A DNA stretch of 64,000 nt from Trichoderma breve (Eukaryota; Ascomycota; Sordariomycetes; Hypocreales; Hypocreaceae). The stretch is from positions 806,001 through 870,000 of the forward strand of contig NC_079237.1 in the NCBI RefSeq assembly GCF_028502605.1, written 5' to 3'. A program made the translations under genes and the position numbers. Shown piece after piece: positions 8,056-61,367 of this stretch; positions within the stretch are counted from its first letter, which is position 1; each line of letters starts with the position of its first letter. The notes beneath the pieces are model-generated. The model saw nothing but the letters and a program-made list of their open reading frames with translations. It had not been told where the DNA came from and ran no database searches.

Positions 8056-8391
8056 ATGCTCGGTTGCATCAGCTATATGATGACATGCTGCCGAATGTAC
8101 CATATCTTGTACAAACTATACCAAAGAAGAATGAACAAAAAAAAAAAAAAAGACAACAGAAATGCACCACCCAAACTAGGCTGCAGTCGCAAACCGTGAC
8201 GACATCAAACTCATGACATGAAACTCCTGACCCTCATGAAATATAATGGTATCGTTCCGACCCAATAGCCTGCAAATGTTAGGAAAACGAAGGGAAAGGC
8301 CTGAGCCATAAACGCCAATCTGATCTGCCCATCAACAAAAATAAAAAGAAAAGATAACAACAAAGATAATGCTCCCTGGACAGAGCCATTA
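8056..8391. other. Intergenic, shared 3' flank of uS11m and the DeSI gene
   Basis: These 336 bases separate convergent stop codons. They contain an A-rich run near 8136-8151. The sequence looks like two short 3' UTRs and carries no gene that I can support. Confidence 0.45.
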
Positions 8392-32950: not shown

Positions 32951-34052
32951 TCAGGGAGCTGAGCATGTTCGGTGGGTGATGTTGTAGTCAAAGGCAGTCA
33001 GTATTCCAACCAACTGGGACACCGTGGCAAAGACTACTAGTATGTGGAAGAGTTGATGGGAAGAGCCGTAGATGTCGAATTTACCAGGATACCGGCTCTC
33101 GGGAAACTTGGTCTGTAGAATCATGGTGTTCAGCATCAATTTCCATCACATGCGAACTCTGGGGACCTACGACATAAATCAAGGCCCCAAGCAGAAGGCA
33201 TCCTGCTTCGGCCAGATAATAGGGCAGTCCGGACTGCTTCATCATTTGCGACCAGCCGAACATGACGATTCCATGTATCAAGGGCGCAAAGCCGGATAGG
33301 CCTGTTCCTACGAACGCCAGTGCTCGGAAAACGCGGAACTCTTTGCCCTTGAACTTGGGATTTAACATGATGAAGATGGTAATCGATCCGAGAACCCCAA
33401 TCTGTCAATCAAAGTAAGCGTTGGATATGAAACCAAAGAAAAAAAAAAAAGCATGGATTCTCACCATAGACCAGTAAATTTTGCGTTGTAAAGGTTCACA
33501 CCAAAACACCATGTAGATTCCCGATACAAAGTCACCAAGCGTCAGGATAACTATGCCAACCAGATCAAACCGCAGCCAAAATTGTTCAACCTCGTGGGAG
33601 TGGTTCATAAGGGTATGATATGTCGCTGACAGTCCCATGCAAACAACACCAGTTAAGAGGAAGAAGGCAAAGATGAAGAAATCGGCGCCGGACATGTTAT
33701 GGTGGTTGCTTGCAAGATACTGTAGAATATACCACTCGCCGAGAAGAAAAGCGACTGCCGGTATTAGGTGAGAAAAGATATTGACCGTCTCGTTGTGGAT
33801 AAACGACCAGCTGCGCAATGAAACCTGAGCCGAGCCCGAGATTGGGCGATAGCCATGACGGATGAACTCATTATCCTGATGCCAATGTGGTAGCTCTTCA
33901 AACGAAAGAAGAACAGTGCGAGACTTTCCGGCCCTGGAGGTGGTGCTCAGAAGCCGTGGGCTGAGGGACATGGAATCGATCTTGGAGTCTCGGTGCGCCA
34001 CTGGTACCTGCGGCATCGGGGACGAAAGGCGAAGACGGGGAGCAGATGTCAT
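32951..34052 (-). CDS. PAQR-family seven-helix membrane protein (AdipoR/Izh-like), copy 1
   Basis: PAQR proteins (adiponectin-receptor family; yeast Izh1-4) are seven-helix membrane proteins with a zinc site and ceramidase-like activity in animal members. Exons 34052-33465, 33401-33171 and 33112-32951, all joined in phase 0, give 326 residues. A cytosolic N-terminus of about 85 residues leads to EFIRHGYRP and SFIHNETVNIFSHLIPA. Zinc-site residues are His in SATYHTLMNH, Asp in FDLVGI and the pair in GSSHQLFHILVV. The intron borders are GTGAGA/CAG and GTAGGT/CAG. A second gene of this family lies at 49356. Function in this fungus is not predictable beyond the family. Confidence 0.88.
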
Positions 34053-35355
34053 TGCTGTCGCGCGTCGCGGCTGAATAGGTATACGTTGAATGGAAAATGA
34101 AGAAAAAGGGACTTTACTCTGCGTCGGTATCTTTTCTTGTCGCTCTTAGGCGCCAGCCTCGCTCACACTGCAAAGGCTGGAATGTGCATGGAAGAGAGAA
34201 AAGCCCAAATTTCATTGTTTGCTTTGTCCCAGACCCTGCAAGGCCAATGAACCTGCGACACGGGCTGAGTGACTGACAGAATCCTCTGATACCTTTGGAC
34301 CAACCACGTCACAGAGCCAACCGCCCACTTAGCAAGAGGGATGTGCAACGCCGATTTGCCATACAATCGCGTTGTCGGCTCAATACATGCTCCGTACGGA
34401 GTACTTGGCACAGAAAAAAAGCAAATACTACACCTCACTGGCGTCGGACTGCGCTGTGCTATTATACTATTATAGGAAGCCAGCCCGCTCAGCTGATGGG
34501 GGACGGAAATCCTTCTTATGCCGTTGACTTACGGATACACCACACCACATACTGCCTGCCTGTCACGGATATGCAACACGAGGCCACTCCACCTCGTGCT
34601 CGAGCATTCTCTCTATCAAATGAGAAATGATGAGCTCCAGTGTCGTGAGGCTCTGTTGTCCCCTGGTTTACAGCAAGTGTTCGCCCAATGGTAAAAATGC
34701 CTCACCCTAGAGATTGCGTGTTGTGCCTGTAAGAAAATTCGGTTGTCAGACCAATAAAAGACAGAGCTGTCCGCGGCATAGACGGCTGCGGGATGCGGTA
34801 GCTTCGGTAAGTGTAAATACCAAGGTAATTGCCATGCTGTTCAGTTGACAACTGAGGGAGGGGGGGTGTCAAACTGACAACCTGTGGGCGGAAACTTACC
34901 GATAACTTATTATGGAGGCGCTTATAATGCCTGTCAAGTACCCAAGCGGGGGATCTACTTGAGGATACATGGCAATTTCCACAGGGGTTCCGGGGCTGAA
35001 GCTGCCTACATGTATGTGCTAAGGTATTATTGGTATAGCAGCACTGGAGTTGAGGTCAAGGTACAGGATTGAGGTGATCCTCGCGTGTTCGCTGATGCAC
35101 ACTCCTTGTCTTACACATTTGGTTGTTTGACCGATGGATTCCTTTCCATGCCTTGCTTTTCTTTTCTCGCCCACATCAAACCCGAGCAATGTTTTACAAA
35201 ATCAACCTCGTTGTCCCTTACATACCTTAGACAATAGACTGTCTAGATAACTTCCTACTTCTAAGATAGCGGATTGGCACTGAGATCCTAGAAGTTCCAC
35301 TTCACTTCCACTTCTATTTTGTCGCTGTGGAGCTGTGCGCTTTACCTGCCCGAGG
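34053..35355. other. Divergent intergenic region between PAQR copy 1 and the NLR-like gene
   Basis: The 1.3 kb contains a palindromic CTCCGTACGGAG at 34390-34401 and T-rich promoter-like sequence close to the NLR start. ORFs are short. No gene is supported. Confidence 0.45.
34390..34401. repeat. Palindrome CTCCGTACGGAG
   Basis: The 12-base sequence is a perfect inverted repeat. Related TACGGAGTA or TACTCCGTA sequences occur at 15908, 15931 and 61762, always between genes. Confidence 0.5.
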
Positions 35356-38300
35356 ATGGCGTCCCGTGAGGACTACTTAGTTGGGTGGGTTTGCGCATTG
35401 CCGGTAGAGGTTGCGGCAGCCAAAGCGACGCTTGATCACATTCATGATAACCTGCCTTCATCACCTGAACACAACTTGGACGACAGCAACAACTATATTC
35501 TAGGCAGTCTTCAAGGTCACAATGTCGTGATCGCGTATCCAACTTCTGGCGTCTATGGCCAAGTGTCGGTGGCGAGCGTGGCCACCCAGCTGCTCGCCAG
35601 CTTCAAATCTATCCGGTTCACTCTGATGGTTGGCATTGCAGGAGGGGTTCCAGAAACCAAAGAGGATATTCGTCTTGGCGATGTCGTTGTAAGCAAATCG
35701 ACGGCTGACTGGCCGGGTGTCATTCAATGCCAGTACGACGTAAACGGGGAGCAAGTCGATGATCAAAATCAGTTGGTTCGCGGCAGGGCATCAGATCAGC
35801 CGACACCATTACTTCTTACAGCTATGGGAAAGGCCGAGACAGCCGCCATCTTTGATGAAAGTCATATGTCTAAGTACATCTCTGAGATTGTGCAGAAAGA
35901 TCCCGTGGCCTTTGCCCATCCTGGCCCAGGGCAAGACGTCCTCTTTGAACCAGACTATCATCACACAGCCATTGAGTCTGAAGAAGATGGATGCGAACAT
36001 TGCAATCCAGATAGGATCCGGCCTCGGCAGCCACGGGAGACACAAGACCCCATAGTTCATTATGGGTTGATTGTCTCTGGGAATTCTCTGATACGCCACG
36101 GAGCGACCCGGGACCAGCTCGCGCAGAAGCAAGGCGCTCTCTGTTTGGAGACGGAGGTGAACGGCCTGAAAAATGCTGCCAAGTACTTGGTCATTCGAGG
36201 AATCTGCGACTATGCAGATTCGCATAGCTCCAAGCTCTGGCATGCCTACGCCGCCGCCGCAGCAGCAGCATATGCTAAAGAGATCCTTTCTTTCATACCA
36301 ACGATTGTCAAGGCGACAACTCTGGCAACAAACACATATGCTGAGGCCGCGCCGGTCCTTGATGCTTTGCTACTAACCCGGCCCGAAGTTGACCGGAAAT
36401 CCCTTATTGCTTTGAAAGGGCGCAGAGTTGATGGCACCTGCGAGTGGCTCGTACAGCACCCCAGCTATCAGGGGTGGCTGGCAGACGCCAACCAACCACT
36501 TCTCTGGATCTCAGGCGGCCCTGGAAAAGGGAAGACCATGCTGTCAATCTATATTACCGAAGTGCTACAGCCAATTGTTGACGTCGGTGAAAATGTTCTC
36601 CTTTATTATTTCTGTAGCAACCGCGATAAGAACCGCAACACCGCACTTACCATCATGAGAGGCATCATACATCAATGGATCAGCCGCCATTCACACTTGG
36701 CGCAACACGTCAGGAGTTCCTTCGAGGGCACTGAAACAACCAAATATACCGTCTCCAGCTTCGTCTCCTTGTGGAGGGTGTTTCTTACTCTGCTTCAGCA
36801 GAGCGGGTCTTCTCAGGTAGTCTGTGTGCTGGATGGTTTGGACGAATGCGAAAAGGAATCACTCGGGCAGCTTCTCGATGCCATTGGAACCTATCTATCG
36901 AAGTCTGAGGAAAAGGAGAGACCACGACTGAAGCTCATTCTTCTCTCTCGACCACAACCAGCCATTTTGGAGAGATCGCTTGGCCAATATGAACAGATCA
37001 AATTGGACGCTTCTGGTACAGAGATTTCGCGTGATATAGAGACATACATCTTCGCCAAAGTTGCCGAACTGGCATACGACCAAAACCTCTCGGAAGAACA
37101 GATTGCCCAAGTTCAAAAGGCATTGTTGGCTGGCGCTGATGGTACCTTTTTGTGGGTTGGATTCGTTGCCAATGAGCTTCAGGGCAGGAGTTGGGACAAA
37201 ATGAATGAGATTCTCCATCGTGTTCCTAAAGGCCTTGGTGGTGTCTACCAACGGCTTCTTCAGCAAATTGAGGACAAGGATGCGCTGGTCCCTATTCTTC
37301 AATGGGTTGTTCTGGCTGCCCGGCCTCTCACACTGGATGAGTTGACGGCGGCCACCGGGATTAAGGGATCTGGGAACTTTTCGGCAACGGACGTGATTAG
37401 GAATCGGCTCAGACTCTGCGGACTAATGGTGAAAATCCAAGGAAATGTAGTCAACCTGGTCCACGAGTCGGCAAAGGAGTTTTTTCAGAGCAATCAAGTC
37501 AACATCAAAGGGATCAGCAGGTTCCGCATGAGCCACGACACTCATAGGAGTCTTATGCGAACCTGCCTAGAACACGTTGAACGTGGTTATGGAAGCCCCG
37601 GAAATATGAAAGAGAGATCTGCCAAATACCCTCTCTTGACTTATGCCAGCCAGTATTGGCCGGTGCATTTCCAGCACGCCATGGATGTAATTGATGCGTC
37701 GTCTGAGTTCTCGCGTCCGTTCTTCCAGGTTGAGTCTCCAATCCGGGACGATTGGTGGAAATTCTACTGGGAGCAGGAGAAGAATGGCAGAAATCCGCCC
37801 AAGTTCACGCTCTTGCATCTTGCTGCGTACCTTGGCAATGTATCTTGGGCCAAGTTGCTGATCAAAGAGAGTTCTCGTGCCATTTCGAGAAAGGACAATT
37901 ACGGCCGGACGCCACTTTCCTGGGCCGTCAACAGAGGTCACCGAGACATGGTTGAATTGCTGCTTGACCATGGTGCTCGTATCAATGTCAAAGATCGGAG
38001 CGATTTGACAGCACTCCATGTAGCGGTTACTGGACAGCACAAGGAGATTGTGTCTGTGCTGATCGACCGGGGTGCCCGTCTCGAGAGTAAATCCGAGCAT
38101 GGCGACACACCCCTGATTCGAGCCATTCAAGCGAACTCGAGGGAAATCATCCAGATTTTACTCGAGCGTGGAGCACGTGTGAACAAATTGCCAACTCCTC
38201 CAGGAGTTGCATCCCTGAGACCACCTACGGATCCAATGGAAGAGCGGGTAAAGGAGCTATTGACGCTTCAAGAACCAATTTTCCTTGCAAGATACAACAA

Positions 38301-39372
38301 AGCATCACGAAATGTTGGCATGGTCATGAAAGCCCTAGGCCTTTCGTTCCGCTTTCCCATCATTCTTCGGTTGATGACACTGTATTTGAAGTTTATAGCG
38401 TTTGACCGCTGGGAGCATATGTCTGTACTGCAGGAGCTCGTTGACGAGAACAGAACAGACGAACTGCGAGAATGGGCTGAACAGTATCGCGAGTTCTTCG
38501 TCCAGTTGGTTGTTGCCAGAAATCCTAGAAGATTAACGGCCATGACCGACTTGCCAACGCAGATATTCCGGGCCGTCGCTCCTGGAGATCTTCACGCATT
38601 GCTGGCAATCGCAGTTCTTGTCGGTTCGGAAACTAAACTCGCAGCCAATCGACAAGGATGGAGAGAAGGAGATTTCATCACAGCGAGGGCATTCTCACAT
38701 TGGGCCGCCGTTGCCTATGACAGAGACGCAGAAGAGTACTTGCACTATGGTGTTCGCGAGTTCTTGAACGATTTCGATGCTTGTATTCAAAGTGGAAACC
38801 GAGAAGATAACGTGCATCGTTCGGCGTTACTCTTGACCTGCCAGTTTGGCATGCTCGATAACAAAGAGCCGAAACCGATCGATTACTTCGCTAGGGTCAT
38901 TGCAGAATTCTACGAGGGATACATTGGCAGCAGCCATGAAGTTGACTTGTTCAGTGACTTGAACCAGGCATGCGCCAATGAGCTCATGGTCATCAGCCAA
39001 ACCCAAGACTCTCACAGGCTATCTCTCTTCCTGACGAGCATTGTCCAATTTGCTCAGCGTTCTCAAGACAAGGGATTGGACCGCTTTCTCAACATACCCT
39101 CAGCATCATGCTTGATTCTCTGCCAAGAAAATGCCGCGGCTCACAGGTGGCTGATTGGCGAGGCAATCCCAGAAGCATTTAGTGCTTTGATAGCACAACA
39201 ACCCGCCGGAGCGCTTCAGAAGAGGGCGTGCAAAACTCTTGTGGAGTGCTTGATCATTGCAAAGCAGTATGGGTTGGCATTGCCTGCGGCGGAACTGAAG
39301 CAAAGAGTGAAGCAGCACTTGCACGAATTGCCGGGAATCGAAAATATGATAAAGGGGATTATTGGTTTATGA
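35356..39372 (+). CDS. NLR-like STAND protein: PNP domain, NACHT, ankyrin repeats
   Basis: The single exon encodes 1,338 residues. Residues 6-315 form a nucleoside-phosphorylase (PNP_UDP) domain, with DYLVGWVCALPVE, GIAGGVP and GICDYADSHS. The PNP segment normally reading C(F)EMEAAG is LCLETEVNG here, a change at the nucleoside site. A NACHT NTPase follows, with Walker A SGGPGKGKT (about 387-395) and Walker B VVCVLDGLDECEK (about 488-500). Residues 815-955 hold about four ankyrin repeats. The last 380 residues are helical and do not match a family I know. Fungal NLRs of this layout take part in non-self recognition and can trigger cell death, and the N-terminal domain is the effector or signalling part. 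No effector gene directly abuts its 5' side. ATG 35356 is chosen because the frame before it starts with GTG and the PNP opening follows. Confidence 0.9.
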   Translation: MASREDYLVGWVCALPVEVAAAKATLDHIHDNLPSSPEHNLDDSNNYILGSLQGHNVVIAYPTSGVYGQVSVASVATQLLASFKSIRFTLMVGIAGGVPETKEDIRLGDVVVSKSTADWPGVIQCQYDVNGEQVDDQNQLVRGRASDQPTPLLLTAMGKAETAAIFDESHMSKYISEIVQKDPVAFAHPGPGQDVLFEPDYHHTAIESEEDGCEHCNPDRIRPRQPRETQDPIVHYGLIVSGNSLIRHGATRDQLAQKQGALCLETEVNGLKNAAKYLVIRGICDYADSHSSKLWHAYAAAAAAAYAKEILSFIPTIVKATTLATNTYAEAAPVLDALLLTRPEVDRKSLIALKGRRVDGTCEWLVQHPSYQGWLADANQPLLWISGGPGKGKTMLSIYITEVLQPIVDVGENVLLYYFCSNRDKNRNTALTIMRGIIHQWISRHSHLAQHVRSSFEGTETTKYTVSSFVSLWRVFLTLLQQSGSSQVVCVLDGLDECEKESLGQLLDAIGTYLSKSEEKERPRLKLILLSRPQPAILERSLGQYEQIKLDASGTEISRDIETYIFAKVAELAYDQNLSEEQIAQVQKALLAGADGTFLWVGFVANELQGRSWDKMNEILHRVPKGLGGVYQRLLQQIEDKDALVPILQWVVLAARPLTLDELTAATGIKGSGNFSATDVIRNRLRLCGLMVKIQGNVVNLVHESAKEFFQSNQVNIKGISRFRMSHDTHRSLMRTCLEHVERGYGSPGNMKERSAKYPLLTYASQYWPVHFQHAMDVIDASSEFSRPFFQVESPIRDDWWKFYWEQEKNGRNPPKFTLLHLAAYLGNVSWAKLLIKESSRAISRKDNYGRTPLSWAVNRGHRDMVELLLDHGARINVKDRSDLTALHVAVTGQHKEIVSVLIDRGARLESKSEHGDTPLIRAIQANSREIIQILLERGARVNKLPTPPGVASLRPPTDPMEERVKELLTLQEPIFLARYNKASRNVGMVMKALGLSFRFPIILRLMTLYLKFIAFDRWEHMSVLQELVDENRTDELREWAEQYREFFVQLVVARNPRRLTAMTDLPTQIFRAVAPGDLHALLAIAVLVGSETKLAANRQGWREGDFITARAFSHWAAVAYDRDAEEYLHYGVREFLNDFDACIQSGNREDNVHRSALLLTCQFGMLDNKEPKPIDYFARVIAEFYEGYIGSSHEVDLFSDLNQACANELMVISQTQDSHRLSLFLTSIVQFAQRSQDKGLDRFLNIPSASCLILCQENAAAHRWLIGEAIPEAFSALIAQQPAGALQKRACKTLVECLIIAKQYGLALPAAELKQRVKQHLHELPGIENMIKGIIGL

Positions 39373-39600: not shown

Positions 39601-42600
39601 CTATCCTATCAGCCGTTTCCAAAAGCCCGTTGCGCGCGACCGGACCGTCCTCGATTTGCGCTTATTGTCATTTGTCTGCGGTGCAGGCGCCGGCGATTCC
39701 ACCGGCGTACTTGAAGCTGAATGATCCGGAACAGATGTCGTTGACGAAACCGGGACAGATGAGGACGATTGTTCTGGCTCAGTAGGGAAGGTAGGCCGCC
39801 ACGACATTGGCGTGACTGACTCGACTTCCGGTGCGAATGAGACTGTTCGATCCGGAATAGAGAACTGACCCTTGGGTCTAAGTGCGCGTCGGATCTGGCC
39901 CTCCAACTCGGGGTCAGTATCTTGTCTTTGGTATCCAGCTTGGTGAAGCCTTTGTAAAACATCTTTATCTGAGATAAATTCTTCCCAGGTCTTGCGTCCT
40001 TGAGGGAGGATGTTGGGATCGGCACCGCTGTTGAGAAGCAGATCTATGATGGGAAGCATGCGCTTCTTTGCAGCGTAGTAGAGTGCAGTCCTTCTTCCAG
40101 AATCCCTCCTATTAACATGAGAAGCGTCTTTGATGAAGAGTCTAATTATAGGAATGTTGCCTATGACAACAGCTTGTCGTAACCCTGTGGCCGCCCTGCA
40201 ACAGCGTGACTTGCTAAAAGCCAAGTTACTGGTCGCTTTGTAGGTATGACTTGCTGGCCCAAGATCCAGCCATTCTTCTGCAGTGAGGCCGCTCTCATCA
40301 AAGAGGGCCCGAGGCTCTGTAATGAGAGAGCTATCCATCAGAACATTGATAGTAGCCAGATCTCGATTATGAACGGCTAGATGAAGAACGGACCAGCCAT
40401 GGTTATCCTGCTGAGAAACACTGGATCTTACGCGGTCGTCTCCTAAAAGCAATTGGACAACCTCAGGATGTCCCATGAATGCAGCGTGATGTAGTGCAGT
40501 CCAACCATGACATGTTGACTTGAGCGGGTCGGCTCCATATTCAAGAAGCAAGCTCACAACATGAGTATTTCCTCCATTTGCAGCACAGTGCAGTGGTGAT
40601 GTGCCATAGGAGCTGACGGCGTTGACGTTGGCCCCCTTCTCCAGCAACAGTTTGACAACTCCATAGTAGCCCTCCTCTGCCGCCCAATGTATTGCAGACC
40701 AACCATCGCGATCGCGATAATTTGGATCCCCACCATGTTCGAGGAGCAATTTTACAATGTCGAGGCTACCAGAAGCTGCTGCTTCTTCCAGTGGCACACC
40801 CAGCGAATCTTGAGTCTTAGACATGCCAGTATATTGGTCCAGAAGCCTCAAAGCAATGCTATATCTGCCCAGACCGGCTGCCCAAGTCAGCACAGACCTT
40901 CCATCGCCACTTATGAAATTGACATCTGCGCCTGCGTGGAGTAAATGGATGACGACTGCTTCATTCCCGGCAACCACAGCCCAGAGGAGCGGAGAAAATC
41001 CATATCTGTCAGTGATGCTTATATCAGCGCCGATGTCGACCAAGATCTGAACGGCTTCCTCGTGGCCCAACCCTGCATAGTGATGCACCAATGTTTGGCC
41101 ATTATCATCTTCTAGATTCAGGATGGCTTTACCGCCTGCGCCCAGGAGCAGCAGAAAAATTACATGAACACTTTGATGCCTTCCTAGGGGAGAATACCAC
41201 AGCGCGGTCCTGCCGCTATTGTCTCTGCTGCTCCAATTCGCGCCTTCTTTGATCAGGGATTCAACCAAGTCCTGGTCGCCAGCCTGTACCGCGCGATGAA
41301 GCTTCGTCATGCCTGACTCGTCTTTGTCCTCCAAGTCGAGTCCTGATACCGATGCCCTGATATCTTCTTCACGGGGGTCCCCAGTGACATCTGCAACTTC
41401 AGAGTTGTCATGCTGGAAGTCTAGTTTTTCGTCATCCAGTAAACTGTACATGGATCTGCGAACGTTTGCAAACCCCTGCCCATCATCTTCTGATCCTTCG
41501 TCGCTTTTGATGCTTTTAGCATCATCATCGCTAGGCAGTTTTTGCAATGTAAGCAACGCAATCTCTTTTATATGAGCAGCGACGTGCAACTGGAGAGCAT
41601 CACTTGAGAAGACGGCACTAGATTCGGCTTTTTCTGGGGGTTGAAAGTCGTCGCCAAATGGGCACTCCAGCAACTTATTAAGGGCTGGTCTTTGTGCTGC
41701 GCTGCTGAGCATCCCGGCAAGTTCTTTAGGCACGTCATGCTCTTCGATTGAATGCTTCTGATAGTCGAGCTCCTGATCAAAGGTTCTGGGAGGGTGAGAA
41801 GGGGCCCTGCACTCCCATGTATGTCCGTGAGCGTTCTGCATGTGGCCGATCCACGCTTTCGATGATTCAAATGTGAGCGGGCCGGTCTTGTTATGACCTG
41901 CCTCTAAACAGTGTGGGAAAACACAAATGAAAGGTTCCAGATCTCCGATGACATGGTTGCTAGAGCAGGTTAGCTATTGTGTTATCACGAGAATAGTCAT
42001 CGGCTGCTTACTTCCACATCATTGTCTTGTTAGAGTTCTTAAACTCAATAATAACGCCGCAGTATGGGCACTCCGGTGTTGAGGGTAATGGAGGGAACGA
42101 CAATTTGTTGTTCACCAGAACCGATTTAGCCCGAGGAACCTCAGTTACGGACTTGGCTAATAAAGCTCCAACAGCAGTCTGTCGAGCAGTTGTTGCAGTC
42201 GTTACCGGCACCACCGGGGCACCACCTTGTCCCGATGTTCTGTTGGTGGTCGCAGGCTTTGGTAACGCACTCGGAGCAAAATGTACAGCCGGAGCACTCT
42301 CCTTGATCTTGGGCAATTGAACTTCAGGCGGTTTAGTTTGAGGATTCTGAACCGTCAAGTCGATGCGCCTTCGGTGAGATCGCTGATAATACAGTCGTCG
42401 AAGTCGGAGCGCATTGGCTTCCATCATTGCCAAGCGAAGGGAATCAGGAGCCATAGGAAACCGGAATTTGATGTAGCAGTCTGTGTAGCGGGTTAATTCC
42501 TCTATCTTTTCGTTCGCCTCTTTATCGTCCGTATATCTTTCAATTTTCAGAGCCCGGTTAGTCTTTGCGGACTTTCGTACGGCATTGGATAGGCGAAAGA

Positions 42601-43173
42601 GTCGTGACACTGTCCCGCCGATTGTGTCGGTGATTTTCGAAAAGTTCTCTTCTGCTTGATCCACGTCGCTGTCTGAGTCGCTTGCGTCGTCGTCGTCCCT
42701 CCTCGTGAGTTTCGAATCGCTGTATTCTGATATACGCTGTCGTTTTCTGCTTGGAGTCTGCGGGGGCGGGTCGTTGTTGATCGGCTTCACTGTTGTCGCA
42801 TTTCCCATTAGCATAGAATCCTTGATGTTGAGCCCGATCGAATTGGTGCGTTGAGTAACTTACAGGATGCCAAAGTATCGCAAATGACGTCTAGGAGCTG
42901 ATGTATAATGTCTACAACTGTGGGACTGAATCGGAGTCTGTAGTCCAACGAAACATTGAGCGGTCCATAGACGTCCATATTTGATGTCCAGAGTGTAAAG
43001 CGCGCCAGCTGGTCGTCCATGACAGTAGGATCCGGCACAATGTCTGGCAGAACCATGTATTTACGGAAGAGCGAGTTGCATTGCGCTGCGTGTTCTGCGA
43101 TGGTCGGGCGCAGGCCCTCTTGGAGAAAGACATCTTCTACAAGATCATCTTCCATGCGATCTAGACCTCTCAT
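39601..43173 (-). CDS. Ankyrin-repeat protein with zinc-finger-like region
   Basis: Exons 43173-42864, 42789-42012 and 41959-39601 give 1,148 residues. The N-terminal 100 residues include FTLWTSNMDVYGPLNVSLDY, a motif I associate with fungal ankyrin and C2H2 proteins. At about 343 a CPYCG pair begins a zinc-finger-like block that continues with FICVFPHC and a downstream WIGHMQNAHG, and further Cys/His groups to about 500. About eleven or twelve ankyrin repeats fill about 577-1040. The C-terminal 80 residues are Ser/Pro-rich. Intron 1 was placed between TCC T|GTAAGT and ACAG|TG AAG, with branch GCTAAT; other borders there give stop codons. The gene is tail-to-tail with the NLR (228 bases between stops), so the two may be partners, but this is inference. 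No NTPase domain is present. Confidence 0.85.
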
Positions 43174-44525: not shown

Positions 44526-45356
44526 ATGGCCTTTACAAAGACGTATTTCCTATGTCCGACGTCTGACTTCATCCATCCGCCACCCACCGGTCCGTTATGC
44601 CTCGGTTCTATAATTCGCTCCACGTCATCCCCGCAATACCCTCTGAATAGAGCCAAAACCGTCGCCGTTGCTGACGCGTTCCCGCCTGTTGTAGAGACGG
44701 ACTGGAAGAAGACCGTTTCAACCGAAAAGGGCGTCGGTTTGGGTGTTTACGCACAGTTCTTACAGCTGGCTTCCGGCGGGTTGCCCGTCGGTCCCGAAGT
44801 CAACGTTGCACACTCGAACAAGACGAAGAGTATCTTTGCGTTTGATACGGTGACGACTTTGGCGTTTGAGCCGACACAAGAGTATGTGCAAGAAGCTGTC
44901 AAGGCACCCACCATACAGACATGGCTGAGGGAGCCCAAGCAAAAATTCGCACCCAGTGTCTCGCTCTACCTCGTCACGGGCATGAAGCTCGTCAAAGGCG
45001 CGAGAATCAAGTACTCGACTTCGCAGAGCACAAAGGTCTCTGGGAACATTGGTATTGATGTGCCTGCGCTGGCTACAACTTTTGGCCCAAAGGGTCGTTG
45101 GAACAGCACGAATGATGATGAGACTGAGATTAACCGTGAATCTGAATTTGTGTTTGCCTTCCGTGTCAAGAGGCTCAAGTTTGGGCGGAAACTCGCCGTT
45201 GAAGAGTATAACAAGGGCGCCTTTTTGGCTATTGGCGATGAAAAGGATGATGGTATATCTGTTCTGGTGGAGGATGTAGATGGGTCTGATATCAAGACCG
45301 CGATAGCCGTTCCCGATGTGGCCGAGAACGGCATTGTCTATTGCGTCCCTGCTTAA
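44526..45356 (+). CDS. Gasdermin-like pore-forming protein (RCD-1/HET-Q1 family)
   Basis: The intronless gene encodes 276 residues. It opens with YFLCPTSDFIHPPPTGPL and LGSII, a pattern I associate with fungal gasdermin-like proteins of the RCD-1/HET-Q1 group. The body alternates beta-rich stretches and basic segments (SLYLVTGMKLVKGARI, FVFAFRVKRLKFG), as expected for an N-terminal gasdermin pore domain. About 35-40 residues follow the last basic strand, the place of the short inhibitory tail in HET-Q1. In known fungal systems a clustered protease cuts off this tail, the rest inserts in the plasma membrane and the cell dies. The neighbour on the other strand, 89 bases away, is a subtilisin-like protease. 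The family call is from pattern recognition, not a search. No signal peptide is present. Confidence 0.75.
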   Translation: MAFTKTYFLCPTSDFIHPPPTGPLCLGSIIRSTSSPQYPLNRAKTVAVADAFPPVVETDWKKTVSTEKGVGLGVYAQFLQLASGGLPVGPEVNVAHSNKTKSIFAFDTVTTLAFEPTQEYVQEAVKAPTIQTWLREPKQKFAPSVSLYLVTGMKLVKGARIKYSTSQSTKVSGNIGIDVPALATTFGPKGRWNSTNDDETEINRESEFVFAFRVKRLKFGRKLAVEEYNKGAFLAIGDEKDDGISVLVEDVDGSDIKTAIAVPDVAENGIVYCVPA

Positions 45357-45445
45357 AGATAAAAGAATAAAAATAAATCGAATCATACTTGAGATCTCAT
45401 GAATTGGGTATATTGTTGGAAGTGGAGTGTATCGTTATTACGTTT

Positions 45446-48442
45446 CTAGTCATACAAGTGTTTTCTGATACTCTTAATCTTGTTGTAAACCTCCTCCCTT
45501 GTCGACTTCCTATCAAAGAGTGTATGAGGCGTGATGTAGTCATAACCTTGCCCTCTCCTCTGCTTAACCATACTCTTCAAAACCTCATCCATTGAATGGA
45601 CGTCTTTCAGCCACGGCCCTAGCAGGTCACCTCCCGGAGGCATGTGTTGTTCCTGCTGCCGGACAAAAGATAGGATCGATGCGGCAAGCCCAGCGGCAAT
45701 CGGTGTCGCGACTGATGTGCCTGACATGACATTGACATGTTCAAAATGGCCATTCTTGCCAATTGGCCAGTGAGAAGAGACATTCTCTCCTAGTAAGCTG
45801 AAGTTGACATCTTTGTCATCTGCTGTTGGGTTGAACGTGGAGGGATTGCCGTTTCCATCCGTTGAGTGAATGCAAAAGACGCTGGGATATTTGGCCGGAA
45901 AAGCTCGCCCAAGATTTGCTCCGTCATTCGATGCCGCGGCGAAGAGCAGTGTCTGATTGGCTAGTGCCTTAGATATGGCCACTTGCATAGGCTTGTTGTA
46001 TTCCCGAATCCCGAATGACATTGATATAATATCCACATTCCACACATCAACTGCGTGCTCAATGGCCTACACAAACAATTAGCTTCGTCTAAAAAAGAGT
46101 ATGTTCTGTCATGCAGCCAGCCTTACCTTTGCAATGTCATCGTAAGTGCCACGATCTAGAGTCTCGCGACCTGCAACTCTGGCGACGTAGACCTCAGCGC
46201 ATGTGGCAACTTTGAGCAGAAGTCCAAGAGCATGAGTGCCGTGCCCGATCTCGTCTCGAGTATCATTTTCTTTTCCGCTCACAAAACTTTGCCAGTTCCT
46301 GATTCGTGGATCTTGTCCCTGGTCGGTCATTAGAAGTGGATTTTCAGGGTCCCATCCAGAATCCAAGATGGCTATTCGCACGGGCTCGAACGTTCTGGTA
46401 CCAGGCTCAAAGGCGTCGAAAGGATCAACGTGGGTATAAATCGAGGCGAGAAGGTTGTCCATCCATTGTATCGAAAGCGGACTCCTAGCGAATCATTAGT
46501 ATGGCGAAGCTTTATAATGCTATGGAAACACTTTACTCTTGTCCATTGCCCGCCTGGTGACTTGCGTCAAAAAAGTACAGACTCTTCTCGACGAGCTGTG
46601 CACGAAATTGGGGGTTTGGAGAAGGTTGTCGCGACCCCGTCGCTCGTGGTACCGTATCGGGCGCGAGAGTTGTGTAGGCCGCGGGTGTGGCGTCAGACAT
46701 CGAACGATATGGGATTGCCCGTGATCCGTTGTCAGAGATCTCGACCTTGGCTGTTTCATGACGGACAACTTCTTGACCAAAGGGACCCCAGCAGAGCTGA
46801 TTTTGTTGAGGATCAAGTGAGCCCAAGTTCTCCATTCGAAGACCCCATGACTTGAATATCTCAGCTTCGAGTCGTTTAATGACGTTTTGATAGAAGAGCC
46901 GCTGAACGTCGTCAGATTCAAAGGCGGCATCCTGTCCAGGAGGGAGGTACTCCCACCGCAGGCATGCTCTCGTGGCGAGAAAGTAATCTCTGCCGGCGTC
47001 AGCTTCTAGATTGTTGAGCAATTTAAGGCAGGTATAATAATCGGAATTGACGTTCCTGGTCCCGTGCGGGTCATCTCCCATCAACTCTATAGGTGTGCAA
47101 TAGTGAAGCTCACACAAGAGTATACCTAGCGCTAGCACACTCGCATTGGGATGAACATTGTGTTTAGAGCTGTCAGCATTGACTCCATTAGCTGCCCTGC
47201 CGGCTGCGATGATCGGAACGTGTTCCATGGCCAGAAAGGGCTTCGTGATGTCGGGGAGTTGTCCATCCTCCAGTGGATCAACAAATAGAATATGTGAGTG
47301 ATTGAAGGAAGGCTGTATCCACGGCGTCTCCAAGAATGGGAGCAGCGCAGCAGCTAGTGTGACAGCTAATATTCGCTTCCCCTTGAGTGGTAATGCAGAT
47401 TTACCACGTAATTCTTGCTGACGCTGGAACAGAGCCGACAAAGATACCGTTCGCGACATTTGATCGCCGCCAAAAGTCTTTGGCTGCGGACGAAGCCTCT
47501 GAAATATCCCACCCTCAAGAGCCAAGTGCAAGCAGTTTTGCTGACCGAGCGACTCTGTAATGCTTTGGCATAGGTGGACAAATTCGGGCGTGGTGCTAAC
47601 TACGGGCTCAGACGCGCTTCTCATCCTGCTGTTGTGTATGTCTCTACCGCGGAATGTCAGTAGAAGTCATTGAACGAAGCTGCACAAAGCTCACTTGATC
47701 GTTATTTTTGCTTCTTGCAATGCAGTTTCACCTGGAGCCCGCACGCCGAAAAACACTTCGAAGCTCGTCTCAACGTTGAAATCTTTGTTCTGCTGTGGCA
47801 GCGAAAGTCTCACGCTCAACCCTGAGCATCTCTGGCAAACGCATACCCAGTGCTGCCGCAACGCATTGTCCAAGGACACTAGATGCTTCCTCATGCGCAC
47901 GGCGAAATCAGCATCGGGGTCTTTGTCAAAATTGTCGATGGCATTCGGGTCTTCGCGAGGAGGTAGAACTCGGCGCATCTTTGCCCCCCGGTCCAAGTTC
48001 GAAAATTCCTCAAGGACGGCGTCACTTTCTCGTTTCCGTTTACTGGTACGAATGGGAGTGTTCGGGTTGGAAATCATCGCGTGAAGCTTGGGATACGACA
48101 CATCCTGGCGTAAACCCTGCTCCGTAAGCTTGTGTTAGCGAGCTGGAGGTGAGTGGCCGAAAAGACTGAAGCTTGCCGTATAGCAGGATCACTTACAGAA
48201 TCCGATTTCCCATCTGAGCTATATTGGACATACTGTTCAAATACGCGCAGCGCTCTTGCGATGTCCTCAGGCTCAGGCTCGTCGGATTCATTGGCGTCGC
48301 TCTGCAGAAATGCATCTGCGCGTACCCAGGCTGCGAGTGTTTGTGATTTTAATGATACGGGCTCCGCTGGTTTTTCCGGTGGTTTTCGAGAGAAATAATC
48401 GCACGCGGCCTTGAACAGACCGAGGTCCCCAATCACATTCAT
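45446..48442 (-). CDS. Subtilisin-like serine protease with long N-terminal regulatory region (HET-Q2-like)
   Basis: Exons 48442-48197, 48116-47695, 47643-46537, 46484-46127 and 46066-45446 join to 917 residues. The C-terminal third (about 600-917) is a peptidase S8 domain with a full triad: Asp633 in AILDSGWDP, His673 in IGHGTHALG and Ser829 in MSGTSVATPIAAG; the oxyanion Asn is in AAASNDG. The first 550 residues resemble the DUF7580-type region found in many fungal NLR and protease proteins, with CVCQRCSGLSVRLSLP, then ILAVTLAAALLPFLETPW and LALGILLCELHY. The 5' end is uncertain: the in-frame sequence before ATG 48442 starts at a CAG acceptor (48517 region), so a small upstream exon may be missing. 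The tail-to-tail position with the gasdermin-like gene fits a protease that activates it, as HET-Q2 does HET-Q1. Confidence 0.8.
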
Positions 48443-49355
48443 AATTATACGTCGAAAATTCGCAGATTCCGCGATGTCACTAAGACACAAATCAGGTGTG
48501 CCGTGTAAGGCTGCAAGAAAATGTTATAGGTATCGCACCTTGAGCTGATCAGGTAATCGCCGCCATTGTATGGATGCAAGGATAGAACCCCCTCGCCTCG
48601 CCTCGGGCTGTGTTCAACTTCAACTGCTTGTACTATACTGAATACGCACCCAAAGCCGTGATGAACCCAGCGTGCAGATCCTCCCGCCTATGAGCACGCC
48701 AGCCGTGTGTCTTTAGCCCACGCCTTCTGACAGGTCAGTTTCCTCAGTCCATGTCCCTTGAGGCTCAGCTACTGCACTTACAAGGGAGTAAGCTGGGAAT
48801 TGTGGATATGAACGAGCATATTCGATGGAGCCACCCGCTGTAACCTGAGCACAGCGGTACCAAGCAGGTACTGCATGGGAATGAGAACTTGAAAACCGAA
48901 CAGACAGCCGACCCTCCATCTCAAAGCTGAGGCGGCTACTGTACATGTATGTTGGGGGCCATGTGTCCACTTGCGTGTGGTCATAGGCGCGAAGGCACGC
49001 ATTCCCTGCTCTGCTTGGCCTCCCAATGACCTCCATTGGCAACTCAGCGTAGTTGAAAGATGAGAAGTGAAACTATTATGTGCGCCTGTAATAATTGGTT
49101 CAAGTTGCCTGATAAATGATTCCAAGCCACACACTCTCTGCGCTGAAACACGTCGACAACCAGTTTGTTGGGAGCCTCGCGCGTCCGTGCCTCGCTATTT
49201 GCTGTTGCATCACACTTTTACCGTCTTTTGTGACATTTATATGACCCCCCCCCCCCCCCCCCCCCTGCCATTTATTTAAAAGTCTAGCACCTGGTATTGG
49301 TGGTCTTGTGCTTCATCGTCAGTCAGCGCGGCTCTGACTTCTCGTGAGAAGAATC
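48443..49355. other. Divergent intergenic region with a poly-C run
   Basis: The region between the protease 5' end and PAQR copy 2 contains a run of 21 C at 49245-49265. An ORF of 109 codons on the minus strand at 48713-49042 does not link in frame to the protease. A missing short 5' exon of the protease could lie here. Confidence 0.4.
49245..49265. repeat. Homopolymer of 21 C
   Basis: Twenty-one C residues in a row lie 90 bases upstream of the PAQR copy 2 start codon. Runs this long slip during replication and sequencing, so the length may be variable or inexact. Confidence 0.7.
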
Positions 49356-50457
49356 ATGTCAGAAACACAACTCAAGAAACGACAGGTGCCGCAAGTCAGC
49401 ATGAACAGCACGAACAACCCCGCAAATCAGCCAAAGGCCAAAAAATCGCGAACCGTATCGTGGAACGAGGTTGCTGACTGGCAGTTTGACAACAAGTATA
49501 TCCTCAGCGGGTATCGGCCAGAAAACGGAGACTATCTGGAAGTCCTTGCCAGCCTGACCTTTTTGCACAACGAGACTTGCAATGTGTACACTCATCTGAT
49601 CGGGGCTCTGATCCTACCGATCTTGGCACCTCTCGTTCTTCGGGTGTTGTCCCAGCCTCAATTTCTCAATGTCTCGTCCATGGACTATGCGGCGTTTGGA
49701 GTCTACTTTTGGTGTGCGGAGATTTGTTTAATCTTGAGCTCGCTTTACCACCTGATACAGCCTCACTCGCATCGCGTAGACCTGTTCTGGCATGGAATGG
49801 ATTTGCTTGGTATTGTCATTGTCACAGTGGGCACGTTCTCATCTGGCATCTTCTATGTGTTTTTCTGCGAAGCGGACTTGCAAAAACTGCATTGGGGTAT
49901 TGTCAGTCTCTCCGAGCGACCATCGCCGCTCATACTCACTCACCCGGCAGCTGGGATAAACATCCAATAATTAGCACGCTAACATGAGTTTCAGATCTTA
50001 TCCACGGGCACAATCACCGGTGTTCTCATCTCGAACCCCATTCTTAAAACGCCGCGCTGGCGGAAAGTGAAAGTGGGTGCCTTTGTTGTCTTTGGCGCTT
50101 CATCGTTCATCCCACTGCTACATGGAGTCCAACGATACGGCCTTGAATACATGCTCCAATACTCTGGAATGAAATGGTACTTGGTCGAGCTTACCTTCTA
50201 TGGCACTGGAGTCAGCCTTTACGGGGTATGTCTCGCACGCTCACCTCACCGAAGGATGAGAATTCATACTAACGAATCGTCTGCAGTTCCGAATTCCGGA
50301 GCGTTTGTCGCCAGGTACATTTGATATCTTTGGAAGCGGACACCAGCTCTTTCATGTCGCCATCTTATGCGCAATGTACTCACATGTGACCGCTCTGCTG
50401 CAAGGTTTCACAACCTGTCATACCTTGGATGTGTGTCAACTTCAAGGTCTTCACTAA
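49356..50457 (+). CDS. PAQR-family seven-helix membrane protein, copy 2
   Basis: Exons 49356-49901, 49995-50225 and 50287-50457, all phase 0, give 315 residues. It has the same plan as the gene at 32951: middle exon of exactly 231 bases and introns at matching places. Landmarks are YILSGYRPENG, LTFLHNETCNVYTHLIGA, SSLYHLIQPHSH with the first His, GMDLLGI with Asp, and GSGHQLFHVAIL with the last His pair. The N-terminus is about 70 hydrophilic residues. The C-terminus after the last helix is short and differs from copy 1. The two proteins differ widely in sequence, so the duplication is not recent. Its place beside the gasdermin-protease pair may be chance. Confidence 0.88.
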
Positions 50458-56232: not shown

Positions 56233-59200
56233 TCATTCAAGCATCTCATCGCTAATGCCCATATCCTTCTTCCAGATTAGGAATTCTTCCAATGTTTCCT
56301 CCGAACCTGACAATGCACCCTTTCTCACCAACGTGCATACGAAATTGCGATAATCTCCTGCTCTAGAAACTGCCAAATCTAACGGAGTTAATTGTTCACC
56401 ATTCTTGGCGTTAATGTCAACCTCCAGGCTAACGCTTAAAAGTTCATCAAGCATTTTGAGCATGGTTTCTTCATCACTCTCCTGATAGGTCCATTGACAC
56501 AAAGTGTGCATTGGAGTGTTGCCGTCTTTTCCCTTTTCTAAAACCGCTTTCACGCTTGCTTTCTTATCATGTGCAACAAAATCTTGCACAAGCTCAAGGT
56601 TACCGATATACAACGAGTGTTGTAACGGCGAAAAGTCGAGAGAGTTGTATAATGTGGTGCTGGCTCCCTTCTCGAGCAAGATCTTTACAATATCACTGTG
56701 TTTATTGCGAACAGCAATGTGTAATGGCGTTTGGTTACGATACTCACTAACAGCATCAATTTTCGCGCCCGCTTTTAACAACTGTTGGAGGATATTGACT
56801 TCGTTTTGAGAGACTGCAAGATGCAGTGGCGAATATCCATCTTCATCAACAGCATCAACATCGACCTTGGCTTTCAACAGTAGTTGCACAATTCTGTCGC
56901 TTCCTCCTGCAACTGCACCAAGTAGAGGTGCGTATCCCTCTCTTTCGTCAGCATCAACATTGGCACCAGCTTTGATCAGCAGTTCTGCAATCTCCCATTT
57001 CTTCTTGTAGATTGATATGAGCAACGGCGTTTGTCCGAAATCGTCCAGCGCGTCAACATCGGCTCCAAGTCGATGTAGCAACTCTATAGCTTCGGATGGG
57101 CCATGCTCTGCTGCTATGTGTAGTGGAGTTGCTTCGTCTTTGGCTTTAGCCCTGGCATAATCAGCGGCTTTAATTGAATCAGATTGAAGAAGTCTTTGTG
57201 CAATGCCGAATCCCTTTGACCCAAGACTAAGAGCCATATGTAGTGGCGTTCTCCCATCCTTTGCCGCTGTCGCAACGTTTGCACCCTCGTCCACCAAAAG
57301 TGTAGCAACTTCGATTGTACCATCTGCCAGGGATTGATAGAGTGGCGTCCGTCCTTCTAGATCAGTTGCTTCCTTATCAGCGCCACTTTTCAGAAGCAGC
57401 CGTACAGTTTCAATCTCTTTAACTGCGATGTGAAGCGGAGTTGAGCCATCTTTTGATTTGGCATCGAGTTGTGCACCAGCTTCGATTAGCAAAGGGATCG
57501 CCGGCAATGACTTGTTTTCGATTGCGAGATGCAGAGGTGTACGGGAATCATTGTCGCCGATGTTAATGTCTGCTCCGCAATCTTCAATGATGCATGTCAG
57601 TAAGTCCTTGTGTCCATATATCGCGGCTAGATGTAGACAGGTCCAACCGAATCGATCCTTGAGACTAATGTCGTCCTTTAGGAGCCAGACTGAGTCCACA
57701 TCTCCCCTGACTGCAGCCCAGTGAATCGGATGTCTCTCGTTGCGATCCACGTGGACCACGCCCTTTCCAGTATATTTCTGGCGTCCTGATTTGACTTTAT
57801 CGACCAGCATTTGCAGAATATCGGCATTTCCACTTCGAACAGCACAGTGCATTGGCGTAATCCCATCATATCCGGCAATCTGAATTGGAGCGTCGCGATC
57901 CAGTAGCATGTCCACTACTCTCTCGTTTCCTACGAGGCAAGCATGCTGTAAGGGCGTCCATCCCATAAAGTCTCGAAGGTTGAGAGCTTCTTTTTCCTTA
58001 GAAAAGACTATGCGCATGTTGTCGGCTTGTAAGTTGGCCGCGTAATGAAGCGGCGACCAACCAAAGGCGTCTGCCTTTTCGAGCTTTTCGAAGTCCCAGA
58101 AGTATAGAGTTTTCTCCGACTCGATTTCTTGCATAAACTGTTGATGATCATCGGTGATTTGGAAACTCTCCGGCAATGATCTTATGTTGTCAGGTGAAGG
58201 ACCAATTATTGCATTGAAAGGCATCGCATAGTGCCATTCCTTCATTAGCAGCCTCGTCGGTATTGGGATATTAGCTTGCTTTGCGAACTTTTCGTCCTTT
58301 AATTTTGTTATTAGAATGTTCAATTGTTTGGTAAGCTCTTCCTCCTCCCGCCCTTCCGACTTCTGGAGCACTGCTTCGTGACGCAACCTGCTAAGAAACC
58401 CCAAGCATACAGCTATGGCCAATGGACCGGACGACTCCTTTGCTAGATCAAATTGTAGAGCCAAGTTAACGAGACAACAGCAACTATCAACTAGCTTTTC
58501 CCATTGGCATGCTCGTTCATATTTTTGTGCCTGCTTTGTGGCATCGTCAATGACGTTCTTGATGTTGCTTAGTTTCTGCTCGAGGCTTAAGGGCACAATA
58601 ATATCGAAATATATATCCGATAGCGTCCCGAATCCGATCTTCTCAAGTTTCCTGGCCAAATTGGAAATAGTGTCGTTTTTAATCTTCAGCTCTTTCCAGT
58701 CTTCTGTCATCTTACTATAGTTCATCTGTTGTATGCTCGACGCGCTTGTGATGGTGACTTCAGGCATCTTTGCGACTGCGCGTAAAAATGAGAACAACAA
58801 GTCCCTGGAGAAAAGCCTTTCTTGCTTTTCTTGGCACTCGAGAACGAGATACTTTGAATCTTCCCCGTCTTTGTCTGTAGACTTGACGGGTCCTTCTTCT
58901 GAGGTGAACCCGACTACCGTCGTACCAGTCGTTTTCTTCTTGTCTATTTCAGCTTTGGGTTGCGTAGACATTTCAGCGATGACTTCTGGCATCCACCAAT
59001 GAAGATCTCGGGACAAGCGGCCCTTGTGCTCACTTGATCCATACAGCCGCATCTGGTGAGACTGATTACCGCCAGAAAGTTTCCCAGGCGGGTTGGAGTA
59101 CAGCCATAGAGAGAGAATTGCCTCGATTCTCTCGCTTCCATCTTTGATCTGCCATCTCATATCATTTTTCTTCTCAAGTTCTATATCGACATGTTCAACG

Positions 59201-61367
59201 ACATGTTTATCTGATAACCCAGTATAAATTGCTGGAATGCTCCACACATAATTTCCTTCAGGCAATTGTTCTAGAAATGTTTGGGCAATGGTTTCAATCG
59301 CGGATGTTAAACGAGCAGCTTCTTCACGGGCCGGACTTTTCCACTTGGAAAGATTTCGCAGTTGCTGTCGCGCCACCATCATCTTATGGGCCATTGATGT
59401 TTTCTCAATCTGTTGGCTGTCATCGTCCTCTAGCCTCAGAGAGCGATACGCTTGCTTGTCTCCGGTGAGGACATGCCACCTGGGAGAACTGTCGTCTTTT
59501 GAAGCATCATTCTCTCTCCCCTTGCGAGGAATGCCATCAAGTATTGCCCAGGGAGCCGATTTAATATCTCCAAAGCTCAGAGCAAACCAATCCAGCTCAG
59601 ATTTCGACTTCAACCGCGTTCGAATCGGAGATTTTCCGAGTCCACGTCGAACAATGACCCTTATAATTGTCACCACAATTGTGATGCCAAGCTGTAGGAT
59701 TGATGCTGTCCAATTGAGTCCTCTCATTCCAATAAATTGTGCAATGAATCCAATGAGAGAAATGAGAGCGCCGATAAATGTAATATTCTCCAAAATTCTT
59801 TCCCGAGTCTGCTCATCCTTCTCCTTTGTATCTTCGGCATCCTTTTCGGTATGGCCAAAAATGGGACTCTCTTGCATATTTTCCCTGATATTTCGACGAG
59901 ACATTGTGATATATTTTCGTTGCCTAGTTGGGTAGATTGCAAATGGCCTAAAGACTTGCTCGGCCACAGTATGATGCTTTTGCAACCATACGATAAAAAT
60001 CTGATGTTTATCTGCTTTATAACACTTCTCTGCTGTGCTCTTTTCAACGACCCACGCGCACATGAAAAGACCGAGCACCAAGAGAAGGGTTCCTCCAGCG
60101 GCACATGGAAAAGCATAGTCGACGACTCTCTTGCCATCCTTCAAAAATTTGCCCTTGATAGGCTGATGATAGGTGATGAAGCCAAAATATACAAGGGCAC
60201 CAAGCTGTAGTATCACGCCGATAGTGGCTGCAAGATAGATTTCGCCTCGTTCGACTCTATCGTGGCAATTGAGGAGAAGATTCGGTGCGCTCTCATCAGA
60301 TTCAACAACAACAATCATTTCCTTCTTGTCTGTCTTGTCGGATTCCGAAAGCCCGGAATATGTGGTGCCGCTATCAGTCTTTCCAGAGTCAGTCTTTCCC
60401 GAGGTTGTCTTGCTAGAATCGGTCTTGGCAGTGTCTCTTTTTCGGATCACAGGAACACCGCTGATCACGGCAGGGTTCTTTGTGCTTTCAGGTGCAACAA
60501 CCTCTATTTGAGTGCTGGTGCTGGATTCATTTTGCTGACTTCCGGATTCTAGATCCGTCTCGAAGGACGACATAGTTTGTTCTCTTTTTATCCGTGATCG
60601 ATTTTGCGGAGATGAAGCGGAAGAACTCAGCAGCTTTCCGCAGCTACGCTTTACATTATTCGAAAATCGGGCTAGAATCTTTTTAAACGATCTCCAAGCA
60701 TATCTTGGACCGGCAGTTTCTTCAATGTACCTATCTTAGCAGACAGCTGAGAAGTGGGTATGATAGCATGAACGCTTACCGATCTGCTGGAGAATCTTTT
60801 TACTCTCTACTTCCTCCAGTTTCTCATACCGAATATGAACGTCCTTTTGAGATAAAGAATCGGGATTACTCCCATTTGGCAGAAGGCAGATGAACTGATA
60901 TATATCGGCCGATCCCGGACATCTAACCACGCTGTGCCCGTTCCAAAGCTCGCATGCCTCTTTGGACGTTGATGACATGACGTCGATCTCTGCCGCTGAG
61001 AGATTCTCTCTGGCTCTTCCAATAAACGACTTCAGCCATGCCGGCCCGGCCACTCGGATAGCGCTCACAACGGTTGTGATTGCGCCAATCGGGGCAACAG
61101 CCAAGAGGATGCAGTCGGCGATGCCCATGGCTTGGCTCATGAACTGCATGACGACCCGTTCGCCAAATAGCGCAATAATACTACACAGGTTCAATATTAG
61201 TTTAACATTTGAAAGCCGAATAGTAGCATGAGTTATTTGGAGAGGCCTTTTACTTACGGCCCTAGGTCTGAAGCTAGATTGTTCGCAAAATCATCCCCGC
61301 CATCGGCAGATGCACAACCTGCAAGCCATAGCATGAAAAAAATCGAGAAACCAATACCGTGAGCCAT
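56233..61367 (-). CDS. Very large ankyrin-repeat membrane protein
   Basis: Exons 61367-61258, 61180-60780 and 60734-56233 give 1,670 residues. The N-terminus is a clear signal peptide (FSIFFMLWLAGCASA). It is followed by DLGPIIALFGERVVMQFMSQ and a first membrane segment at about 52-78, a start I have seen in fungal ankyrin proteins. Further membrane segments lie near 334-362, 376-401 and 490-535. A Ser/Thr/Lys linker with repeated TDSGK-type units lies at about 265-300. From about 1050 to 1610 at least fifteen ankyrin repeats follow, several near consensus (GRTPLHMALS, GYSPLHLAVS). The AG used for intron 2 (AAG at 60735) is chosen by frame, since the closer AG gives a stop. Without the two short 5' exons the ORF would start at 60573 and miss the signal peptide. 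Function is unknown; ankyrins suggest binding of a partner in the cytosol or lumen. Confidence 0.82.

Follow-up and report, generated by a model that had tools for sequence, protein, structure and literature searches.

Do two genes that lie tail-to-tail in the fungus Trichoderma breve, one for a gasdermin and the other for a subtilisin-like (S8) protease, make up a cell death switch like HET-Q1/HET-Q2 of Podospora anserina, and are those two genes the whole of it? Both lie in a stretch of 64,000 nucleotides (NCBI RefSeq assembly GCF_028502605.1, contig NC_079237.1, positions 806,001 to 870,000 of the forward strand), which we call the window and whose numbering is used below unless a locus label is given. 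The pair is a new member of the known clusters of fungal gasdermins (fGSDM) and HET-Q2-like (Q2L) proteases. We infer that it is a working death switch, and we consider it highly probable that the cassette serves regulated cell death of this kind, with a third gene as partner.

The gasdermin and protease genes

The first-pass annotation, made from the sequence letters, had noticed an intronless 276-residue protein at 44526 with the look of a fungal gasdermin. Both parts of that description hold: the open reading frame (ORF) runs from 44526 to 45356 on the + strand, with 276 codons and no intron, and its product is, by homology, a gasdermin. Searched against the PDB with phmmer, it matches Neurospora crassa RCD-1-2 (E 5.4e-13 over residues 19–217) and RCD-1-1 (E 1.3e-11), the closest solved gasdermins by single-sequence search. 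A profile (A5) built from eight of the 11 gasdermin ORFs of the T. breve genome retrieves the same Neurospora pair at 5e-22 and 7.8e-22, the HET-Q1 pore entry 9uv9 at 7.1e-9 and the bacterial gasdermin 7n51 at 0.0012. The profile search that the annotation had suggested as a check thus finds homology that covers the N-terminal pore-forming domain. Fungal gasdermins are not represented by a Pfam model; Pfam-A gives no match at E 1 for the window protein, so Pfam alone would miss it, and six other gasdermin copies of the genome likewise lack a match. A tblastn search of plasmids with the gasdermin found nothing, as expected.

The protease gene, reported by the annotation as lying 89 bases away on the opposite strand, is there: it occupies 45446 to 48442 on the - strand, and 89 bases separate the two stop codons. 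We modeled it as five exons joined by GT-AG introns (48442-48197, 48116-47695, 47625-46537, 46484-46127 and 46066-45446), which encode 911 residues arranged as an N-terminal region, DUF7580, a linker and an S8 subtilase domain. The subtilase is encoded by exons 4 and 5 (45446 to 46484): Pfam's Peptidase_S8 matches exon 5 at E 4.9e-14 and exon 4 at 5.9e-4, the latter slightly short of the curated cut-off, and exon 5 finds subtilisins in the PDB (best E 9.5e-12). Its catalytic motifs are intact: D627 (ILDSGWD), H667 (GHGTHA), N752 and S823 (SGTSVATP), which we take, by motif and as in subtilisin, to be the catalytic triad and, in the case of N752, the oxyanion residue. The annotation had also called the motifs intact, numbering them Asp633, His673 and Ser829; each of our numbers is lower by six, which indicates a different splice choice.

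What had been missed is that the S8 domain is only the C-terminal third of a larger protein. Exon 3 (46537 to 47625) encodes DUF7580 (PF24476, E 9.1e-25), whereas exons 1 and 2 match nothing credible in Pfam, and no NACHT or NB-ARC domain was found in any of the five exons, each scanned separately against Pfam. A profile of six DUF7580 regions, run against the PDB, listed 14 sequences, all named JAK2 or tyrosine-protein kinase, with a best E value of 0.16. This is suggestive rather than significant, and DUF7580 is perhaps pseudokinase-like; the JAK2 entries are presumably those of the JAK2 pseudokinase domain.

Gasdermin–protease pairing across the genome

We searched the whole T. breve genome (38.5 Mb in nine contigs), so that pairing is judged here among paralogous loci of one genome, and match counts are lower bounds. 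The gasdermin protein finds at least nine matches including itself, and the profile adds a second, shorter copy at locus L024 and a divergent copy at L026, bringing the total to at least 11 ORFs, which occupy 10 loci. For Peptidase_S8 there are at least 43 matches, which we collapsed by hand to 36 places. One of these places lies within 3 kb at six of the 10 gasdermin loci, compared with a mean of 0.05 for random placement (2,000 placements) and a maximum of 2 (5,000 placements), which bears out the earlier claim that gasdermin genes tend to have protease neighbors. Five of the six pairs are tail-to-tail (the window, C7:810 kb, C3:104 kb, C5:1039 kb and C1:6930 kb); the sixth, at C7:2890 kb, has its two genes on one strand. 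Across the six pairs, more similar gasdermins tend modestly to have more similar S8 domains (r 0.56, a value equalled or exceeded in 32 of 720 permutations). S8 and DUF7580 similarities show no significant correlation (33 of 120 permutations).

At a seventh locus, L026, the gasdermin is tail-to-tail with a CHAT gene (CHAT E 2.7e-31). This divergent gasdermin (L026:2508-3383, - strand) was missed by the single-sequence search and found by the profile at E 4.8e-4; alone, it has no PDB match. CHAT, searched genome-wide, has at least three matches, and the other two loci (L027 and L028) contain no gasdermin in the roughly 1.5 kb read on each side. TPR repeats in the L026 CHAT gene were considered and are unsupported (best E 0.16).

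These proportions resemble the published ones. According to the literature, a protease gene is found close to about 80% of fungal gasdermin genes, S8 accounting for about 60-63% and CHAT for 17-19% (PMC10197012, PMC10989679), and here S8 is found at six and CHAT at one of 10 loci. On this comparison, the window pair is a typical example of a kind already known, its 89 bp of separation being well within the 10 kb used to define Q2L genes.

The other three gasdermin loci are L022, described below, L023 and L024. L023, where neither S8 nor CHAT has a match close to the gasdermin gene, contains a WD40 gene (6818-9064, + strand) divergent from the gasdermin gene. L024 holds two tailless gasdermin ORFs of 229 and 200 residues (4821-5609 and 7644-8381, both - strand), a third-family gene (see below) and, between the gasdermin ORFs, an S8-like remnant recognized by eye (6418-6795, + strand) with no intact protease; this fits either decay or an RCD-1-like tailless state or pair. 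Among the tail-to-tail pairs, the S8 gene at L018 (3061-5544, + strand) has no DUF7580 or third-family match, and the 382-residue ORF upstream of it has no Pfam match.

The gasdermin tail and the predicted cut

The annotation had placed the region whose release would activate the gasdermin at about residues 235–276, and the charge distribution agrees with that placement. The body (residues 1–233) carries a net charge of +8 and the 43-residue, 4.4 kDa tail (234–276) a net charge of -8, with the motif YNKGAFL at the border (residues 228–234; 45207 to 45227, + strand). Y..GA is found at this border in seven of the 11 gasdermin ORFs, and in eight, the window copy included, the border motif or a looser form of it is followed by a tail of 43-58 residues with a net charge of -8 to -19 (for the C7:2890 kb copy the pattern matched twice and we used the second match). 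Among these eight, only the L022 copy has a body that is not net positive (-4). No such tail is found in three copies: the two of L024, one lacking the motif and the other having only 5 residues after it, and the CHAT-linked one, which also lacks the motif.

HET-Q1 offers a close parallel: it has 278 residues, its P1 residue is F238, and cleavage removes 40 residues (PMC10989679). F233, 43 residues from the end of our 276-residue protein, corresponds in place to F238, and we therefore predict it to be P1. By this analogy, the activating cut likely falls after F233 and would free the acidic tail, which would until then be autoinhibitory.

In other respects, the comparison with Podospora is less straightforward. 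The annotation had drawn the HET-Q1/HET-Q2 parallel, and it holds for the partners themselves, a gasdermin of almost equal length that ends in a short tail and an S8 protease with its catalytic motifs. It does not extend to the genetics: het-Q1 and het-Q2 occupy a single locus as idiomorphs (PMC12881547), whereas in T. breve both genes are adjacent in one genome, so that the protease should be held off or otherwise regulated. The protein has room for such control. HET-Q2 has 388 residues (PMC10989679), in contrast to 911 here including DUF7580, and the 523 extra residues are a natural place for it; the T. breve protease is thus probably regulated rather than always on.

A third gene linked to DUF7580

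Beyond the other side of the gasdermin gene lies a C2H2-like/ankyrin gene that the annotation had overlooked (39604 to 43173, - strand; with approximate borders, helical N-terminus 42826-43173, middle 42008-42859, C2H2-like segment and ankyrins 39604-41973). It belongs to a family that recurs in the flanks of gasdermin genes and is recognized by two segments, aligned as A2 and A3: a helical-looking N-terminal one with F..W and SLD.R motifs, and a C2H2-like one. The window copy runs on into ankyrin repeats (Ank_2, E 1.9e-67); seven N-terminal members of the family gave no credible Pfam match. Two single-protein searches (E up to 10; at least 20 and at least 12 matches) yield at least 21 genes of this family.

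Of the 10 gasdermin loci, seven have a third-family gene within 7 kb, against a mean of 0.09 and a maximum of 2 for random placement; all six gasdermin loci that have DUF7580 have the third gene as well. DUF7580 itself has at least 22 matches in the genome, representing 19 genes (the one at C5:919522 is under the cut-off), and for 16 of these 19 there is a third-family match within 6 kb (random mean 0.12, maximum 3). The control places points at random and ignores gene density and the clustering of immune genes, so this excess may be overstated. The two genes are head-to-head in 14 of the 16 cases, the exceptions being the window and C6:3676 kb. Using profiles A2 and A3, which were made from gasdermin loci alone, we found both segments of the third gene at all five DUF7580 loci without gasdermin that were fetched (L031–L035), each head-to-head with the DUF7580 gene; the weakest E values, from this small set, were 9.2e-7 and 5.1e-19. 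Because these loci were picked after the earlier third-family search had flagged them, they confirm identity and orientation, not frequency.

Three DUF7580 genes have no third-family neighbor (C8:857 kb, C4:923 kb and C4:2437 kb), and for three third-family genes no partner was found (C3:2075 kb, C3:2078 kb and C7:1500 kb). Two other members, at C2:2088 kb and C2:261 kb, adjoin an S8 piece with no gasdermin alongside (L030) and tailless gasdermins, respectively.

At L019, L020, L021 and L025 the gene order is gasdermin, DUF7580–S8, third gene, and it is the DUF7580–S8 and third genes that are head-to-head. The window differs: there, the gasdermin gene is the one head-to-head with the third gene (starts at 44526 and 43173), as if the gasdermin–protease block had been inverted. 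The common arrangement is reminiscent of the head-to-head sensor/helper NLR pairs of plants, in which unlike genes diverge and sensing is split from signalling (PMC12258605). This is an analogy only: no NLR domain was found in the scanned parts of the two window proteins, and the window pair is not head-to-head. We did not find 'DUF7580' in the literature searched, and the excerpts searched, which do not cover the primary paper (Clave et al. 2022), neither name a zinc-finger partner of gasdermins nor mention a recurrent third gene. Provisionally, then, we regard the recurrent third gene as new.

Variable ends of the DUF7580 and third genes

What DUF7580 is joined to differs among loci, as seen in the 13 of its 19 genes that were covered. 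An S8 domain comes after it in the window, L019, L020, L021 and L025, all of which have a gasdermin, and in L029, where one frame (L029:1853-6832, + strand) contains DUF7580 and then S8, a protein kinase and ankyrins; the divergent gasdermin that might be expected near this gene (C6:3676 kb) is absent from the 8 kb read. DUF7580 continues in frame into PNP_UDP_1 in L031, L032 and L034, in genes head-to-head with third-family genes, and, judging by coordinates, probably also at C8:284 kb. At L022 (4587-6296, + strand) DUF7580 lies directly upstream of the gasdermin; a single TAA interrupts the frame that they share, there is no S8 match, and this is either a direct receptor–pore fusion or a broken gene. 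In L033 and L035, nothing was found past DUF7580 in the frames read, and there is a hydrophobic stretch at the N-terminus; both N-termini are HeLo-like in appearance, and neither has a Pfam match.

The third gene varies at its end as well: ankyrins in the window, Zn2Cys6 in L021 (E 6.2e-5), RWD in L031 (E 1.8e-5) and DUF3295 in L032 (E 1.4e-26). PNP-like ends were also seen by eye in L031 and L033 and were not confirmed by Pfam at E 0.5.

PNP_UDP and S8 serve as effector domains of fungal NLRs too (PMC10197012, PMC12881547). Together with the variety of ends just described, this leads us to propose one receptor platform with plug-in effectors. We give even odds to the full form of this idea, in which a non-NLR fungal immune receptor platform consists of two genes transcribed divergently, one for a perhaps pseudokinase-like DUF7580 protein and one for a C2H2-like/helical partner, whose effector ends can be exchanged, and the window is a rearranged copy wired to pyroptosis-like death. 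The ends would comprise S8 plus gasdermin, a PNP_UDP phosphorylase, a protease–kinase–ankyrin combination and perhaps a fused gasdermin or an N-terminal membrane helix; this set would overlap that of fungal NLRs, on a different chassis. Protease fusions to kinase-like domains as such have already been stated (PMC12881547). If this is true, pyroptosis-like death and other fungal death routes would share an upstream part, a single chassis that bears protease/gasdermin, phosphorylase and other effectors within one genome.

A proposed mechanism and its alternatives

In the mechanism that we favor, the gasdermin would be made in an inactive form, its short acidic tail masking the basic, membrane-binding body. 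The DUF7580–S8 protein would be a receptor-protease, with its N-terminal and DUF7580 parts holding the protease off until it is triggered, perhaps by non-self after hyphal fusion or by a parasite. The protease would then cut the gasdermin near F233, the tail would depart, and the freed body could oligomerize to form pores in the plasma membrane, killing the hyphal compartment. The product of the third gene (helical, C2H2-like and ankyrin) would most likely work with the DUF7580 protein, either as a sensor or to restrain it. More generally, the DUF7580/third-gene pair could be a platform that uses other effectors at other loci, with gasdermin as one plug-in executioner. The stimuli that activate fungal death sensors are described as a major open question (2025 review, PMC12881547); if DUF7580 receptor-proteases do have a particular second gene as companion, the search for the sensor should begin with that gene.

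Several observations weigh against this picture. For the gasdermin, a single-sequence AlphaFold2 model had a mean predicted local distance difference test score (pLDDT) of 28.7, too low to be informative, and did not reproduce the fold, and Phe occupies the border position only in the window copy; where other copies have a border motif, this residue is M in three, A in two and T, R or I in one each. No S8 match lies within 3 kb at four of the 10 gasdermin loci, no third-gene match lies within 7 kb at three of the 10, and gasdermin and DUF7580 similarities show no significant correlation (r 0.22, 171 of 720 permutations). As for the third gene, the linkage is seen within one genome, and the weakest DUF7580 pair (C5:919/916 kb) has E values of only 0.0055 and 2.38, and leaving it out gives 15 of 18. 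We looked for co-divergence of the third gene with gasdermin or DUF7580 and did not find it (r 0.04, 2130 of 5040 permutations, and r 0.22, 153 of 720, respectively). In the window itself, moreover, the gasdermin gene sits between the third gene and the DUF7580 gene, which are not head-to-head.

The last two points also favor the best of the alternatives, namely that the gasdermin–protease pair is the entire unit and that the third gene, like the NLR gene described below, merely resides in the same island of immune genes. In line with such an island, the window also contains an NLR gene and a large ankyrin frame, and the published fGSDM clusters are described as two-gene units (PMC10197012, PMC10989679). 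What this account leaves unexplained is that a small family (21 genes found) so often neighbors DUF7580, even allowing for a possibly overstated excess, and that it does so at loci without gasdermin and mostly in one orientation. We therefore consider the two-gene account unlikely, though not negligible, relative to a cassette that includes the third gene.

Less probable still is that the gasdermin is activated without its neighbor, by an allelic partner as in RCD-1 or by another protease, and that the S8 protein has other substrates. RCD-1, the closest solved relative in single-sequence searches, lacks an inhibitory C-terminal domain, and both of its allelic forms are needed (PMC11760362); the DUF7580–S8 gene of L029, for its part, has no gasdermin in the 8 kb fetched. 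The window gasdermin, however, has both a protease neighbor and a tail that RCD-1 lacks, about as long as the segment cleaved from HET-Q1, and pairing with S8 recurs at six of the 10 loci. Finally, a role in secretion, in which the pore would release cytoplasmic proteins and not kill, has been named as one yet to be explored for such clusters (PMC12881547), but known members kill when activated (PMC10197012, PMC12881547), making this very improbable.

Neighboring genes in the window

Tail-to-tail with the third gene lies an NLR gene (35353 to 39372, + strand), a 1339-residue open frame in which Pfam identifies PNP_UDP_1, NPHP3_N/NACHT (NACHT under its cut-off) and ankyrins, so that the island comprises four recognition or death genes. 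The NLR gene is a possible fourth member of the functional unit. No direct repeats of at least 25 bp, as a mark of recent movement of the island, were found between 32500 and 51000.

Two HlyIII-related genes (PF03006) flank the island and face outwards, one at 33405-34142 (- strand, E 5.4e-22) and the other at 49344-49970 (+ strand, E 6.1e-19); they are possibly a boundary duplication. Farther along the window, a 1500-codon open frame with many ankyrin repeats occupies 56233-60735 on the - strand.

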